A stretch of 64,000 nucleotides of DNA, taken from the NCBI GenBank assembly GCA_030835305.1, contig JAURPJ010000015.1, forward strand, positions 62,001 to 126,000, written 5' to 3'. Shown here one piece after another: positions 16,069 through 21,964 of the stretch. The notes beneath the pieces are model-generated. The model was not told where the DNA came from. It ran no database searches and worked only from the letters and a program-made list of their open reading frames with translations. A program made the position numbers and the translations under genes. Each line of letters opens with the position of its first letter. Positions within the stretch are counted from its first letter, which is position 1. This DNA is from Verrucomicrobiota bacterium (lineage in GTDB: Bacteria; Verrucomicrobiota; Verrucomicrobiia; Verrucomicrobiales; Akkermansiaceae).

Positions 16069-16776
16069 CTAGATAAATTCCTGATAGGTGGGTTTGATCA
16101 CCAGTTCGGGCACGACGACGTGTTTGGGAAGCTGGGCGATGGCGGCGATGAGGGAGGCAATGTCCTCGGGGTGGACCATACGGGCTTTTTGTTCGTCGGG
16201 GACTTTGACGGGGCGTTCATCGAGGATGGGGGTGTTGATCTCTCCTGGGAAAATGCTGGTGATACGAATCCCGTTGTCAGCTTCCTCTGCATTGATGGCG
16301 GAGGCCATGCCGGAGACTCCAAACTTGGAGGTGGCGTAAGCCATGCCGGCGAGCGGGTAGGCGCGCTTTCCGGCGATGGAGGAAATGTTGAAAACGAGCC
16401 CGTCCTGTCGCTCGCGCATCGCTGGGAGGGCGGCGTGAATCAGGTTGAAGAAGCCGGTGCAATTGATGGCGAGGAGTTTGTCGAAGTCGGCGGGGTCGAT
16501 CTCGCTGACTTTACGTTTTACGATGTTGACGCCAGCCGAGTTGACGAGGATGTCCGGAGTGCCGAAGTCCGCGATGAGAGCGTTGACTTCAGCGCGGTTT
16601 GAGATGTCGCACACACGGGCGGTGAGTTGGTCTCCGGCGACGGCCTGAAGTTTTCCAAGGTTGCGTCCGCAGATGGTGACGGTGGCTCCGGCTTCGGCGA
16701 GTGCTTGGGCGGTGCCGAGTCCGACTCCGCTTCCTCCTCCGGTGACGAGGGCTGTTTTTCCTGTGAGAGGTTTCAT
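16069..16776 (-). CDS. Short-chain dehydrogenase/reductase (SDR)
   Basis: The 235-residue classical SDR has the NAD(P) motif TGGGSGVG (12-19), NSAG (79-82), the catalytic serine in ISSIAG (131-136) and Y147-x-x-x-K151 (YATSK). The family interconverts alcohols and carbonyls; the substrate is not predictable. Its ATG directly abuts the TAA stop of the upstream aldo-keto reductase gene, so the two oxidoreductases form an operon and may act in sequence on one substrate, which is inference. Confidence 0.9.
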   Translation of the reverse strand: MKPLTGKTALVTGGGSGVGLGTAQALAEAGATVTICGRNLGKLQAVAGDQLTARVCDISNRAEVNALIADFGTPDILVNSAGVNIVKRKVSEIDPADFDKLLAINCTGFFNLIHAALPAMRERQDGLVFNISSIAGKRAYPLAGMAYATSKFGVSGMASAINAEEADNGIRITSIFPGEINTPILDERPVKVPDEQKARMVHPEDIASLIAAIAQLPKHVVVPELVIKPTYQEFI

Positions 16777-17742
16777 TTAGTCAAAGATGGGAAAGAATGT
16801 GTTGAATGCCTTTTCGCCAAAAACGGCGGGATCGTTGAAGCGTTTGTGTTGGTCAAGATCCGAGATCGCGGTGAGTTCTTCGGGCGTAAGGACGAATTCG
16901 AAGATGTCGAAGTTTTCGCGAAGGTGGTCGGGTGATTGTGTTTTTGGGATGGGAATGGTGCCGCGTTGCATGGCCCAGCGAAGGGCAACCTGAGCGGTGG
17001 ATTTACCGTGGGCGGCTGCGATTCTTTCGAGAACAGGATGAGCGAGGATGCGTTCGGATGCCTCGGCCATGCCGAGGGGGAGGTAGGAGTCGGCCCCGAA
17101 GGGGGAGAAGGCGGTGACGGCGACGTCTTGTTCCTGACAAAAGCGGAGGAGGTTTTCTTGGCAAAGATAGGGGTGCATTTCGACTTGCAGGACGGCGGGC
17201 TTGATGCGGGCATAGGAAAGGACTTCACGAAGCATGGCGGTGCCGATGTTGGAAACGCCAATTCGTTTGGTGAGACCTGCGTCGACGAGCTCTTCCATGG
17301 CGCGCCAGGTATCGGAGTAGGGCACCAGGATGGGGCTCATGGCCTCGCCTCCGGCGGTCCAGCCGGGAGGATACATTTTGTCGAAGGGGACGAATTCGAG
17401 CGCGATGGGGAAGTGGATGAGATAGAGGTCGAGTTGCCCGATGCCGAGATCGGAGAGGGTCTTTTCGCAGGCCGCACGGACGTGTTGGGGTTCGTGGTAA
17501 GTGTTCCAGAGCTTACTGGTCACCCAGAGATCGTCGCGAGCACACAGCCCGGCGTTAAGGGCGGAAGCGATTCCTTTCCCGACAAGACGTTCATTGCCGT
17601 AGTCGGCGGCGCAGTCGAGGTGGCGGTATCCCGCTTCGATGGCCTGGTGGACAATTTGTGGTGTGAGTTCTTCGGGGATCTTCCAGGTGCCGAGGCCTGG
17701 AGAAGGGAGGGCGGAACCGTCGGAAAAGAGGTGGGCTGACAT
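16777..17742 (-). CDS. Aldo/keto reductase
   Basis: The 321-residue TIM-barrel reductase has the complete catalytic tetrad Asp43 and Tyr48 (HLDCAADYGNE), Lys77 (WVTSKLWN) and His110 (DLYLIHFP), numbering that coincides with eukaryotic aldose reductases. The C-terminal NADPH-binding motif is IPIPKTQSPDHLRENFDIF. It is a full-length AKR, probably reducing sugar aldehydes or ketones with NADPH. It is the first gene of a two-gene operon with the SDR. The SRP RNA gene lies about 85 bases upstream on the same strand. Confidence 0.9.
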   Translation of the reverse strand: MSAHLFSDGSALPSPGLGTWKIPEELTPQIVHQAIEAGYRHLDCAADYGNERLVGKGIASALNAGLCARDDLWVTSKLWNTYHEPQHVRAACEKTLSDLGIGQLDLYLIHFPIALEFVPFDKMYPPGWTAGGEAMSPILVPYSDTWRAMEELVDAGLTKRIGVSNIGTAMLREVLSYARIKPAVLQVEMHPYLCQENLLRFCQEQDVAVTAFSPFGADSYLPLGMAEASERILAHPVLERIAAAHGKSTAQVALRWAMQRGTIPIPKTQSPDHLRENFDIFEFVLTPEELTAISDLDQHKRFNDPAVFGEKAFNTFFPIFD

Positions 17743-17826
17743 TTCGGGAGGATCTTAGGAAAGGAGCACCGCATCCGGCCAATAAAAAAGCCACCTGCGG
17801 TGAAGCGCGGCAGCTAAAAATAAAAA

Positions 17827-17920
17827 GTGCCAGGAAGCCACGGCAATGAGGGACAAGCTGCGGCTGCTACTTTCGTCCTGACCGGGTCCACCAGCCCACA
17901 CTCCGTGACTCCTGACGGGG
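17827..17920 (-). ncRNA. ffs: Signal recognition particle RNA (small bacterial type)
   Basis: On the minus strand the sequence GGTCAGGACGAAAGTAGCAG reproduces the SRP RNA domain-IV hallmark: GGTCAGG on the 5' side, a GNRA tetraloop (GAAA) and AGCAGCC on the 3' side, binding site for Ffh. Flanking arms pair: CGTCAGGAGTCACGG near the 5' end with CCGTGGCTTCCTGGCA near the 3' end (wobbles and one bulge allowed), giving a long hairpin of about 94 nt. A T-rich run (TTTTTATTTTT) follows at once and would terminate it. No Alu domain is seen. The stem between the symmetric loop and the tetraloop has two pairs, one shorter than in E. coli 4.5S RNA. Exact ends are estimated to a few bases. Confidence 0.85.
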
Positions 17921-17978: not shown

Positions 17979-18251
17979 CTACCAGCTCTGCATCCAGAGG
18001 AGGAAGGCAAAGAGCAGCGAAGCGAGGAGAAAGACGGCTGTAATAAAGCCAAGGCCAAGGCCAATGCGATGAGGCGACGGCGCGGGCTCTTTGAGTCCAA
18101 ATTGCAGGGGCTTTTCGCCGGGCAGAAATTCCGGTCCCGCGCCTCTGGACTTACTGGAGTTTTTTTCACTCGGCTGTTTCCGGGAAGCGGCGAATTTCCC
18201 GACATAGTCTATCGAGCGATCGCGACCGGGAGTTGGAATTCTTGGGAGCAT
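17979..18251 (-). CDS. Small basic protein with C-terminal membrane helix
   Basis: The protein is 90 residues from ATG 18251. The soluble N-terminal part is rich in K, R, P and S; a single hydrophobic segment lies at the C-terminus (LGLGFITAVFLLASLLFAFLL), giving a tail-anchored topology. An upstream ATG at 18278 would overlap the preceding gene. The start is 8 bases from the stop of another small protein with the same layout, so the two look like a translational pair. Function unknown. Evidence is the clean membrane segment and the tight spacing. Confidence 0.55.
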   Translation of the reverse strand: MLPRIPTPGRDRSIDYVGKFAASRKQPSEKNSSKSRGAGPEFLPGEKPLQFGLKEPAPSPHRIGLGLGFITAVFLLASLLFAFLLWMQSW

Positions 18252-18258
18252 GGCGAAT

Positions 18259-18519
18259 TCAGTCTCCCAAAATGACATAGAAAATCACGAGAAGCATTGG
18301 GAGGGAAAGGATCAGAAAGAAGATCCCGGAAAACCCCTCGTCGGTTTTCAGCTTGGTTTTACGCAAACAGGCATCGAGAGGTTTATCGGTGCCGAGGAAT
18401 TTGACACGAGATTTCGAAATGTCCTTTTCGCGGCCCGAGCGGCCATTACGGCCATCGGCATAGCGGCTGGCATAAGAGCGGGAATCGAGGCCTTTGGGTG
18501 CTGGAAAACTTTTTCTCAT
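18259..18519 (-). CDS. Small basic protein with C-terminal membrane helix
   Basis: The protein is 86 residues from ATG 18519. The N-terminal half is strongly basic (SRSYASRYADGRNGRSGREK) and the end is hydrophobic (FSGIFFLILSLPMLLVIFYVIL), again a tail-anchored layout. It lies 64 bases after mazG and is followed within 8 bases by a protein of the same design, possibly a diverged duplicate or an interacting pair. The reading frame extends further upstream inside mazG, but only the part from 18519 has protein-like features. Function unknown. Confidence 0.55.
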   Translation of the reverse strand: MRKSFPAPKGLDSRSYASRYADGRNGRSGREKDISKSRVKFLGTDKPLDACLRKTKLKTDEGFSGIFFLILSLPMLLVIFYVILGD

Positions 18520-18583
18520 GGACGAATGATGGTTCGGAAAAAATGTCACGCCATGGTAATGGGCGAGACCTTTTATAACCGCG

Positions 18584-19396
18584 CTACTTTGCGGCGTTCC
18601 AGTGGGCGTCCATTTGCTCCAGGGTGGCGTCCTCCAGGGAGATTTGGTCTTTCTTGAGGCCCTTTTCGATTTGGTCGAAGCGGTGAAGAAACTTTTGGTT
18701 GGTCCCTTCGAGGGCGACCTCGGGATCGACATCGAGTTTCCGAGCGAGGTTGGTGACGATGAAAAGAAGGTCGCCAATTTCGGCCTGAAGTTCCTTGGAA
18801 GCAGGCATCCCTTCCACGTGCTTGGCCAGTTCCTCGCGAACTTCGGCCAGTTCCTCGTCGATTTTCCCGGCAATGCCGGTGGTGTCCGGCCAGTCGAAGC
18901 CGACCTTGCTTGCTTTCTTCTGGAGCTTGGCGGCTTTGAGCAAGGCGGGCAACCCCTTGCCCACTCCGTGAAGGTAGGGTTTTTCCTCGTGGCCTTTTTC
19001 AGCTCGCTTGATGTCCTCCCACTGGGCGAGAACGCCATCGGTGCCACCGACATTGGAGTCGCCGTAAACGTGGGGGTGGCGGCGGACCAGTTTGTCGCTG
19101 ATTCCCCGCGCGATGTCGTCGAGGTCAAAGCGCTTTCCTTCCTCGGCCAGCTCGGCATGGAAGACGACCTGCAGGAGGAGGTCGCCGAGTTCTTCTTTGA
19201 GGTTTTTCTCATCATTGGCACGGATGGCGGCAACGGTTTCGTAAGCTTCCTCGATAAGATTGGAAACCAGCGACTCGTGGGTCTGCTCGGCATCCCAGGG
19301 GCATCCGCCGGGAGCACGAAGCCGGTGCATGATGGCACGAAGGCGCTCGATTTGGCGGCCGGGCTCGGCGCAGTTGATCATTTCGTCGTCGGTCAT
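18584..19396 (-). CDS. mazG: Nucleoside triphosphate pyrophosphohydrolase MazG
   Basis: The 270-residue protein has the two-domain MazG layout. The first domain has RAPGGCPWDAEQTH, the metal-binding EEAYE (E49, E50, E53) and EELGDLLLQVVFH (E69, D72); the second has a weaker copy (EIGDLLFIVTNLARK). MazG cleaves NTPs to NMP and pyrophosphate, removing non-canonical nucleotides and lowering ppGpp in E. coli. The start overlaps the stop of the rhomboid gene by one base (TAATG), implying co-transcription. Confidence 0.95.
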   Translation of the reverse strand: MTDDEMINCAEPGRQIERLRAIMHRLRAPGGCPWDAEQTHESLVSNLIEEAYETVAAIRANDEKNLKEELGDLLLQVVFHAELAEEGKRFDLDDIARGISDKLVRRHPHVYGDSNVGGTDGVLAQWEDIKRAEKGHEEKPYLHGVGKGLPALLKAAKLQKKASKVGFDWPDTTGIAGKIDEELAEVREELAKHVEGMPASKELQAEIGDLLFIVTNLARKLDVDPEVALEGTNQKFLHRFDQIEKGLKKDQISLEDATLEQMDAHWNAAK

Positions 19397-20265
19397 TACT
19401 TGCGTCTTGCTTTGTCGAGGATGTCCCTTTCCTTTTTGGTTAGAGACTGAATGCCCTGCTCGGAGATCTTATCAAGGATCCGATCCACTTCTCTGGTTAA
19501 TTCGAGAGGGGAGCGCTTGCTTTCACGAACAACGGTGGCGTCACGGGTGCGCCGTGGACCCTTTTTCTGCGTTCCAGACCCAATTTGTGAAAGTTTAATG
19601 ACGAACTCCTTGAGCGGAGGTAATTTGAGGACAGCAAATCCAAAGATCGCTCCGCCTAGGTGGCCGGCACTTCCTCCGGCATTGTGCCAGTTGAAGATAA
19701 CGGCAAGGGATTCAATGATGAGGTAGCCGATCGCGAAGGTTCGCATCTTGAGAGGGATGAAGAAAAAGAGGAGAATGCGGGCATCGGGTGCGACAAAGTA
19801 GAAAGCTGCCAGGATTCCGAACAAGCCAGCAGATGCTCCCACCATTTGAACAGCCGGAGTGTAACCATCAAAGAATCCGGGGAGGAAGAAAAGCAGGGTG
19901 TAAAAGAGGGCTCCGGCCACTCCGCAAAGAAGGTAGAAGACCAGATACGCCCGGCTGGTCATCCAGCGCTCGATAAAGGGGCCGAAGAAAAATAGGCCCA
20001 GGCAGTTGGCAAGGAGGTGGCCGAATCCGGCATGCAGGAACTGGAAGGTGATCAGTCGCCAGATCTGAAACCCGTAAATTCCCTCTTCAATGCTGAAGCT
20101 GCCGATGCGATAGAATGCTGATTCCTGCAGCCTTTGGCCCGGGCCGGTAAGGAGGATTTGGATGAAAAGGATCCCCACATTGATGATCAGAAGCCACTTG
20201 CTGACAGGGGCGCCCTCGAAGGGGCCGGGCATGCGGGGCGGGCCGGATTGATAGCCCGGCTGCAT
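19396..20265 (-). CDS. Rhomboid-family intramembrane serine protease
   Basis: The membrane protein has about six transmembrane segments and the rhomboid signature: FLHAGFGHLLANCLGLF (His83 and Asn87 from ATG 20265), catalytic serine in MVGASAGLFG (Ser145) and catalytic histidine in GGSAGHLGG (His202). A cytoplasmic C-terminal extension of about 70 charged residues (KKGPRRTRDATVVRESKRSP onward) ends the protein. Rhomboids cut other membrane proteins within the membrane. The start is uncertain; a GTG at 20289 adds 8 residues. It heads an apparent operon with mazG and two tail-anchored small proteins, which could be substrates, an untested idea. Confidence 0.9.
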   Translation of the reverse strand: MQPGYQSGPPRMPGPFEGAPVSKWLLIINVGILFIQILLTGPGQRLQESAFYRIGSFSIEEGIYGFQIWRLITFQFLHAGFGHLLANCLGLFFFGPFIERWMTSRAYLVFYLLCGVAGALFYTLLFFLPGFFDGYTPAVQMVGASAGLFGILAAFYFVAPDARILLFFFIPLKMRTFAIGYLIIESLAVIFNWHNAGGSAGHLGGAIFGFAVLKLPPLKEFVIKLSQIGSGTQKKGPRRTRDATVVRESKRSPLELTREVDRILDKISEQGIQSLTKKERDILDKARRK

Positions 20266-20368
20266 GTACTCACGATCGTTGTATCCCACAACCAAGCAAT
20301 AACAGTGATTGGCAGGACTGGAAAATGAAACTTTTTCTTAAGGCGATTCCGGTTTGTACTTCCTAGCG

Positions 20369-21475
20369 ATGACGCTACGCGATCTCGGATGGAATGATGA
20401 CTTTGGAAAGGCCTTTGAGGAGGTTGTAAAGGATGGCTGGGTGCCTGGCCGGCTGATCCGGGAGACGAAGATTAATTTCTCGGCTCTCCTGGATGATGCC
20501 GAGGAAGTCGATTGTGTGGTGGGGGGCAAAGTCTGGCACGATGCTTCCTGCGACGCCGAGCTTCCCGCGGTGGGGGACTGGGTGGCCATCGATTTGGGGG
20601 CCGGAGAGAATGACGAACACATCATCCGTGCGAGGCTTCCGAGGCAGACTTGTTTTTCGCGCAAGGCTCCCGGTAAAAGCAGCGAGGAGCAGGTGATGGC
20701 AGCGAATGTCGACATTGTTGTGGTCGTGACCGATGCGGGCCCTGACTTCAATCTTCGGCGCATGGAGCGCTATTTCACCATTATACAAAAGAGCGGCGCA
20801 CGTTGCGTGGTGCTGGTGAATAAATCGGATCTGTTTGAACCCGGGGTCAACGAAAAGGCCCGTGAAGAGATTCAGGATCTTTCTCCCGATGCCGAGGTCT
20901 ACGTGACCAGCGCGACGAGGCACGAGGGGCTCGAGGTGCTGAAATCCTACCTCAAACCGGGGATTACCCTGACCATGGTGGGTTCCAGCGGAGTTGGGAA
21001 ATCGACGCTGGTGAATCAACTGCTGGGTGAGGAATGGTTGTGGACCGGCGAGGTGAATGAGGTCACGGGCAAAGGGCGGCACACTACGGTGGCGAGGGAG
21101 TTGGTGGTTTTGGAGGATGGCGGGATGTTGGTCGACAATCCGGGAATTCGCGAAGTCCAGATGTGGACGGACGAGGATACCCTCCGTGATAGTTTTGCGG
21201 ATGTGGAGGATTTGACGAACCAGTGCAAGTTTCGCGACTGCAAGCATCAGGGCGACAAAGGATGTGCCATCGAGGCGGCGGTGAAAGCGGGTGAGCTGGA
21301 CCCGGCCCGCTATGAAGGATACCTTCGGCTCGATGAGGAGATTGAGGAACTCAACTTCCGGCGCAAGAAGCGCCAGATGATCGTTGAGCGTTGGGGCAAG
21401 CGAAATAAGCGCGTCAAGGCGCGAAACCGCGAAGACCGGATCGAGTTGGAGAAAGAAGAGCGAGGCGAACTTTAG
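20369..21475 (+). CDS. rsgA: Ribosome small-subunit GTPase RsgA (YjeQ)
   Basis: The protein is 368 residues from ATG 20369. It has an N-terminal OB-like region, then a circularly permuted GTPase: G4 NKSD (151-154) precedes G1 GSSGVGKST (205-213), G2 threonines in GRHTT (236-240) and G3 DNPG (256-259). A C-terminal zinc knuckle has C286, C291, H293 and C299. RsgA checks late 30S subunit maturation. A TTG at 20354 could add five residues. It is divergent from the rhomboid gene. Confidence 0.95.
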   Translation: MTLRDLGWNDDFGKAFEEVVKDGWVPGRLIRETKINFSALLDDAEEVDCVVGGKVWHDASCDAELPAVGDWVAIDLGAGENDEHIIRARLPRQTCFSRKAPGKSSEEQVMAANVDIVVVVTDAGPDFNLRRMERYFTIIQKSGARCVVLVNKSDLFEPGVNEKAREEIQDLSPDAEVYVTSATRHEGLEVLKSYLKPGITLTMVGSSGVGKSTLVNQLLGEEWLWTGEVNEVTGKGRHTTVARELVVLEDGGMLVDNPGIREVQMWTDEDTLRDSFADVEDLTNQCKFRDCKHQGDKGCAIEAAVKAGELDPARYEGYLRLDEEIEELNFRRKKRQMIVERWGKRNKRVKARNREDRIELEKEERGEL

Positions 21476-21484
21476 GCAGCCTGC

Positions 21485-21964
21485 TTATTGCGGACGGCCG
21501 CGCTGCCAGCTTTCGACCCGGCCATTGGTGAATTTCACCCAGGAAGAAGCCTCGGGAATGTAGACGACACCGGTGCCAACTCCGCCATTCCATCCCCACG
21601 GACCCCAGCCGGGACCGGCGATTCCACCGCGGCGAATTCCCCAACCGGGGCCACCCCAGCCTCCGCCCCAACCACCCAAGGCCGATTGCACGACGACGGG
21701 TGAGAGGCTGTTGTAAATCCACTGCTCGTAGCGTTTGCCATTCTTTTCGCCCTCGGCCTGGCGGTCGGGGCTACCCCAAGCGAGGAAGACGGCAGGTTGA
21801 GTCATGCCGTTTTGGATTTTACCAACTTCGACGAGAGCTTGTTGCTCTGGCTTAAGAGCGCGGAAAATTTTGGGATTCTTCGCGATCCGGGCCGCAGGAG
21901 TGCGCGAATTGCTGCAGCTCACCGCAAAGAGCGCAAGAAAGGGGAGGAAGAGGAGCGTTTTCAT
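21485..21964 (-). CDS. Lipoprotein with glycine-tryptophan-rich segment
   Basis: The 159-residue protein has a lipoprotein signal (lipobox AVSC, Cys17). Residues 40-90 read LKPEQQALVEVGKIQNGMTQ followed by AVFLAWGSPDR, which recalls the small BamE/SmpA-like fold where G-M-T begins a helix before W-G-x-P. A G/W-rich stretch (about 98-130) and a final beta segment follow. A role in outer-membrane assembly would be speculative. The gene converges on rsgA with 9 bases between. Confidence 0.65.
   Translation of the reverse strand: MKTLLFLPFLALFAVSCSNSRTPAARIAKNPKIFRALKPEQQALVEVGKIQNGMTQPAVFLAWGSPDRQAEGEKNGKRYEQWIYNSLSPVVVQSALGGWGGGWGGPGWGIRRGGIAGPGWGPWGWNGGVGTGVVYIPEASSWVKFTNGRVESWQRGRPQ

Follow-up and report, generated by a model that had tools for sequence, protein, structure and literature searches.

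A rhomboid–mazG gene pair with a DUF6576 tail and a candidate orphan family of small basic proteins between mazG and ffs

Gene content of the locus

The window analyzed here is a 64-kb stretch of DNA from a 4.45 Mb assembly of 133 contigs. Its minus strand carries, in this order, a rhomboid gene, mazG, two small protein genes, the SRP RNA gene ffs, an aldo/keto reductase gene and a short-chain dehydrogenase gene (Table 1). The original prediction united the first four into one operon, and all four minus-strand frames are present, the rhomboid having first been taken as 19396–20265. The rhomboid and mazG overlap, as described then, by one shared base (TAATG), and 64 bases separate mazG from small protein 1; the gap between the two small protein genes is 7 bases and not 8. 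The earlier description left out ffs, which lies directly downstream of small protein 2. On the other side, the synteny comparison within the genus places rsgA upstream of the rhomboid in 20 of the 25 stretches. A frame of 159 aa at positions 21485–21964 of the minus strand begins like a lipoprotein and matches nothing in Pfam; in 10 further genomes of the genus, a relative lies 14–22 bases from rsgA.

Table 1. Genes and sequence features of the locus, in window coordinates
Feature	Position	Strand	Basis
Rhomboid intramembrane protease with DUF6576 tail (probable start)	19396..20289	−	PF01694 E 1.7e-23, PF20216 E 9.1e-10; relative-like N-terminus
Presumed catalytic Ser codon (GASAG, Ser145 of 289-aa form)	19831..19833	−	Alignment column, codon read
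Presumed catalytic His codon (AGHLGG, His202 of 289-aa form)	19660..19662	−	Alignment column, codon read
DUF6576 tail, EVDRILDKISEQGIQSLTKKERDILD region, predicted two helices and short turn	19411..19494	−	PF20216 match, residues 258–285 of 289-aa form
mazG, full-length two-domain nucleoside triphosphate pyrophosphohydrolase	18584..19396	−	NF007113 315.7 bits; PDB 3cra E 3.8e-61
Small protein 1 (86 aa), basic, with a single C-terminal helix	18259..18519	−	dN/dS 0.11 vs G021
Small protein 2 (90 aa), probably a paralogue of small protein 1	17979..18251	−	dN/dS 0.31 vs G021; family alignment
SRP RNA gene ffs (Bacteria_small_SRP)	17825..17917	−	RF00169 covariance score 48.6 bits, gathering score 40
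rsgA, divergent neighbor upstream of rhomboid	20354..21475	+	PF03193 E 1.8e-44; synteny
Aldo/keto reductase, common neighbor after ffs in the genus	16777..17742	−	PF00248; synteny
Short-chain dehydrogenase, after aldo/keto reductase	16069..16776	−	PF00106; synteny

The rhomboid scores 83.9 bits against PF01694, above the curated cut-off of 22.6. Its translation probably begins with the GTG codon at position 20289, because several relatives outside the genus begin with M-G-x-x-D-R-D-Y and the window reads VGYNDREYMQPGY at this position; the protein is 297 aa long from this codon and 289 aa long from the ATG at 20265. The Ser-His catalytic pair—the serine in a GxSx motif and the histidine in a later helix—is present as Ser145 and His202, and is kept in all 25 rhomboids of the genus, including that of the window. 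The C-terminal tail matches DUF6576, a family of unknown function in Pfam. An open-access literature search found no paper naming DUF6576, and none containing both 'rhomboid' and 'mazG'. No solved structure matches the rhomboid by sequence at E 0.001. A structure model built from the one sequence is poor (mean pLDDT 56.0), with the last blocks reaching pLDDT 82–90, and the DUF6576 end is predicted to form two helices.

The window MazG exceeds the NF007113 cut-off (208 bits) as a full-length protein, and its residues 14–269 match PDB 3cra, which we take to be E. coli MazG. Unlike E. coli mazG, the gene is coupled to a rhomboid gene, and the neighbors seen here are other than relA or mazEF. MazG proteins are regarded as house-cleaning pyrophosphohydrolases. 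In the original prediction the enzyme was one that lowers ppGpp. Such an effect of E. coli MazG is indeed cited within PMC6850273, but the same article reports that the MazG proteins of Synechococcus and a cyanophage neither bind nor hydrolyze (p)ppGpp, leaving open an indirect role. As a general activity of MazG, ppGpp lowering is doubtful, and the ppGpp idea is weak for this gene pair.

Conservation of the rhomboid–mazG pair

Of the 27 genomes of the genus, 26 have a mazG match, and the rhomboid gene directly precedes mazG in all 25 testable ones; the count excludes G015, where the contig starts inside mazG, and G004, which has no mazG match. The distance between the matched rhomboid and mazG stretches is −1 to 15 bases when the rhomboid stop codon is left out. 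Outside the genus, we counted as paired any same-strand DUF6576 match lying upstream of mazG at a distance of at most 150 bases. This arrangement holds for 89 of 111 genomes in the rest of the family, the 111 being those with DUF6576 and mazG both among the matches listed, and the spacing ranges from −1 to 148 bases. Two genera are without the link, g3 (0/8) and g10 (0/9). Further unlinked genomes are found in g9 (2/10) and once each in g28, g31 and g49, the g31 case lying at a contig edge; the two genes are also unlinked in G030 of g5. Among other families, both f6 genomes with the two matches show adjacency (G047 of f6 has neither match), while adjacency is seen in none of the 16 genomes of f2–f5 that have both, three more being without a rhomboid match. 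Most of the genomes behind these counts are drafts.

We infer that the rhomboid and mazG are co-transcribed. The predicted neighborhood is conserved to this extent: the rhomboid and mazG form a tight pair within and beyond the genus, but the small protein genes are absent from genomes in which the pair persists and are not a fixed part of the gene order, so that a four-gene operon stands only in its first half.

Rhomboids without the catalytic pair

The first mazG neighbors noticed to be without the catalytic His come from G027 and G031. Both match DUF6576 above its cut-off; against the Rhomboid cut-off of 22.6 bits one falls just below (21.2) and the other above (25.6). Pfam DER1 is also matched by the G027 protein, though weakly and under the cut-off. 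Of 140 surveyed DUF6576 proteins of rhomboid length, 121 keep Ser and His, and 19, from 7 genera, are without the pair. The surveyed set consists of the window protein, 31 proteins from earlier loci and 108 of 115 newly taken in. The latter derive from 124 DUF6576 places outside the genus among the matches listed (one per genome), 5 of which were present in the earlier loci and 4, all from g3, were left out; seven frames below 180 aa (six from g10 and one at a contig end) were excluded. The share of proteins lacking the pair is 1/1 in g2, 2/2 in g6, 6/11 in g9, 4/4 in g10, 4/4 in g28, 1/1 in g29 and 1/14 in g49, compared with 0/25 in the genus of the window.

The pair-less relatives keep open reading frames and the tail. 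Eleven of the 17 with a mazG place listed still precede mazG, with gaps of −1 to 148 bases (G027, G031, G161, G121, G226, G124, G249, G240, G259, G193 and G223), and six lie apart from it (G228, G230, G035, G254, G241 and G245); for the remaining two, G265 and G224, the mazG place is not among the matches listed. Against a consensus built from the Ser-His-bearing set, the identity of the membrane core is 0.24 in proteins without the pair versus 0.63 in those with it. The identity of the 29-residue tail to the same consensus is 0.63 versus 0.70. At least 158 genomes have a DUF6576 match, and all those listed except G229 have a single place, so the pair-less rhomboid is the sole DUF6576 protein found in its genome. 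These findings run against the protease-centered stress unit of the original prediction as a family-wide model: while the genus of the window invariably keeps the pair, cutting as an essential step fails across the family, because pair-less rhomboids keep the tail and, in 11 genomes, the place before mazG.

Phylogeny places 13 of the 19 pair-less proteins in a clade of their own (SH-aLRT 100). Four pair-less g9 proteins group with two Ser-His-bearing ones, and those of G249 and G161 sit on long branches within the Ser-His-bearing half. The tree requires at least three changes of the Ser-His state, but it is a quick tree of 67 of the 140 proteins with long branches, and the number of losses is therefore uncertain; the clade of 13 could be one old, fast-evolving lineage instead of the product of many losses. 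In six g10 genomes DUF6576 is found in short frames without a rhomboid. Short proteins of this kind are encoded at loci L160, L162, L163, L167 and L174, and some of them have a hydrophobic N-terminus. By eye, the neighbor in five of the six loci is a tyrosyl-tRNA synthetase-like gene and not mazG, and a glutaredoxin-like gene is located near the short DUF6576 frame in L160, L163, L167 and L174.

A family of small basic membrane proteins

Both small proteins are basic and end in a single hydrophobic stretch, as the original prediction had it. Computed values for small proteins 1 and 2, respectively, are a pI of 10.0 and 10.4, a 19-residue mean hydropathy of the C-terminal stretch of 2.94 and 2.63, and a net charge before this stretch of +9 and +6. 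Comparison with the near relative G021 (dN/dS in Table 1) reveals a single length change inside the frames, a 6-base in-frame gap in small protein 2. The low dN/dS and the in-frame nature of the only length change rule out chance ORFs and identify the frames as real genes, and by this comparison both proteins are under purifying selection in the window and G021. The two are probable paralogues, since both queries match the same places in G009, G015 and G020 (small protein 2 weakly, E 1e-4 to 0.05) and they share 33% identity over 82 aligned residues.

Eleven intact copies of the family are present in 8 of the 27 genomes of the genus: two each in the window genome (G000), G021 and G009, and one each in G020, G015, G006, G010 and G018. 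Copies were considered intact at E below 1e-20, and these supplied the alignment; matches at E up to 0.1 are listed in 14 of the 27 genomes, and the count leaves out the partial matches of G003 and G026, the weak ones of G016, G019, G008 and G007, and a weak second place in G018. The weak G016 match (E 0.013) is an 87-residue frame without a clear start. Shortened remnants occupy the gap between mazG and ffs in G003, G026 and G017, and, by eye, in G002. The possibility raised with the original prediction, that the small frames are not preserved in relatives, is borne out for most of the genus, because intact copies occur in only eight genomes, but not for the nearest relative G021. The small genes thus appear dispensable in most of the genus and kept by selection in the window genome and its nearest relative.

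Family members share a positive N-terminal part of ~60 residues, a single C-terminal helix and an invariant Gly near the helix start, and most of the 11 rows have a middle motif around FLPxxKPL. A low-confidence structure model computed from five sequences (mean pLDDT 63.5) puts the helix of small protein 1 at residues 63–85. The usual rhomboid client is N-out. The charge pattern, by rule of thumb, predicts an N-in, C-out topology for the small proteins, the reverse of such a client. A rhomboid acting on C-terminal membrane anchors is also described for the rhombosortase/GlyGly-CTERM system (PMC3237569). Membership of the window rhomboid in this group was rejected, as its TIGR03902 match is weak (E 7.5e-9, 35.7 bits versus a cut-off of 84). 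A further difference from that system is that net positive charge after the helix is absent in 10 of the 11 small family rows.

Searches of Pfam and NCBIfam to E 0.1 and of PHROGs to E 1 give no match for small protein 1. Small protein 2, compared in a 99-aa form, has none in Pfam and a single NCBIfam match of 13 bits, below the cut-off of 60; PHROGs gives none for this protein either. When all 11 members are compared with Pfam, five families match one member each, with a best E of 0.059. An order-wide search finds matches in 4 of 189 genomes, those of the window and G021 plus G084 and G182 (stops inside), and a pattern-based search of genome contigs returns four loci, apparently from G021, G009 (twice) and G020. 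These searches revealed no spread beyond the genus, and we regard the small proteins as an orphan family. A viral origin was considered and rejected: none of 29 pattern matches in viral contigs was confirmed, and PHROGs gives no match.

The small genes lie between mazG and ffs in the window, G021, G020 and G006, with the ffs core within ~120 bases after the small gene; the position is the same in G015, at 3.66 kb from ffs. In G010 and G018 the small gene adjoins mazG and ffs is on another contig. In G009 the two small genes precede ffs cores (by 220 and 355 bases) on contigs other than that of rhomboid–mazG. ffs itself is found in 24 of the 27 genomes of the genus.

Interpretation

With moderate confidence, we read the locus as a conserved rhomboid–mazG operon encoding a scaffold for capture and recruiting, next to a separate orphan family of small proteins in the mazG–ffs gap. 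The first layer would be a rhomboid-fold membrane protein with a helical DUF6576 tail, translationally coupled to MazG. The rhomboid fold may capture membrane proteins that are faulty or unassembled, and the tail, presumably cytosolic, may recruit a partner or hand clients over to one. Cutting would be an additional, dispensable activity, as in the case of YqgP and FtsH in B. subtilis, and the co-expressed MazG would clean the nucleotide pool. The second layer is the family of basic proteins that end in a single helix, encoded between mazG and ffs and present in tandem in the window genome and its nearest relative.

By analogy, the best reading of the rhomboid is a membrane quality-control receptor or adaptor like YqgP, co-expressed with MazG. 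YqgP is both a rhomboid protease and an FtsH adaptor, and the latter role is independent of protease activity (PMC7231995). YqgP and the rhomboid described here both carry an additional extramembrane domain, but that of YqgP is N-terminal and metal-binding, whereas here it is the C-terminal DUF6576; the mazG neighbor and the lineages without the catalytic pair are further differences. Protein quality control is given as the primary role of inactive rhomboids in a review (PMC12615303). The eukaryotic pseudoproteases, derlins and iRhoms, similarly have a rhomboid fold that lacks catalytic residues and is kept in evolution (PMC8641752 and PMC6451368); the proteins described here differ in being bacterial, in their DUF6576 tail and in lying next to mazG (11 of the 17 testable ones). 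That the active site has been lost while the tail, and in these 11 cases the mazG neighbor, has been retained fits the adaptor reading better than it fits the cutting of specific small proteins.

More tentatively, the proteins could form a protease-optional rhomboid family, in which the DUF6576 scaffold stays by mazG, the catalytic pair has been lost, probably several times, and the products act like bacterial derlins, drawing a cytosolic partner, perhaps MazG itself, to the membrane. Several points weigh against the scaffold reading of the operon: contact of the rhomboid or its tail with MazG is purely hypothetical, the gene pair is not universal, 6 of 17 pair-less rhomboids are located apart from mazG, and DUF6576 occurs in the short g10 proteins. 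The gene pair gives DUF6576 a first testable role, and the natural catalytic and non-catalytic rhomboids in related genera make a ready comparison of protease and scaffold roles.

It is also possible, if rather doubtful, that the rhomboid and mazG are neighbors for shared expression only and perform separate jobs, membrane protein quality control and nucleotide housecleaning. Their separation in g3, g10 and the 16 genomes of f2–f5 and the variable spacing outside the genus (−1 to 148 bases) agree with this, but the pairing is kept in 89 of the 111 other family genomes listed, including 11 with a pair-less rhomboid. The substrate model of the original prediction, in which the two small single-helix proteins serve as rhomboid substrates and membrane proteolysis is tied to MazG and stress, is improbable. 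The genes do share a strand with gaps of 64 and 7 bases, the window rhomboid keeps Ser and His, and single-pass proteins make up the vast majority of rhomboid substrates according to PMC12615303. Against these points, 8 of 27 genomes have intact small genes, compared with 25 of 25 testable ones that have rhomboid–mazG, the G009 small genes accompany ffs away from the rhomboid, the predicted topology is N-in, and the shortened remnants show that small genes are lost. We consider it highly improbable that the small proteins work with SRP RNA, as basic membrane anchors aiding membrane targeting of ribosomes or SRP: their strong positive charge and proximity to ffs in five genomes, in G009 even away from mazG, would fit, but the small gene stays by mazG with ffs on another contig in G018 and G010, ffs is 3.66 kb away in G015, and ffs is far more widespread (24 of 27 genomes) than intact small genes (8).

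Separate from the adaptor reading, some variation was observed in the SRP RNA genes. G009 has two of them (L159, on contig C62, and L151, on C36), each preceded by its own small protein gene, although C62 is 3,730 bases long and may be a foreign contig or binning error. The bases just before the two small gene start codons of G009 are alike. The SRP RNA of the window and G021 is without one base pair of the apical stem, reading AC-GAAA-GT versus ACG-GAAA-CGT, a feature of 2 of the 23 core sequences. Only these two genomes, with the shortened apical stem, were seen to carry the small protein genes in tandem.
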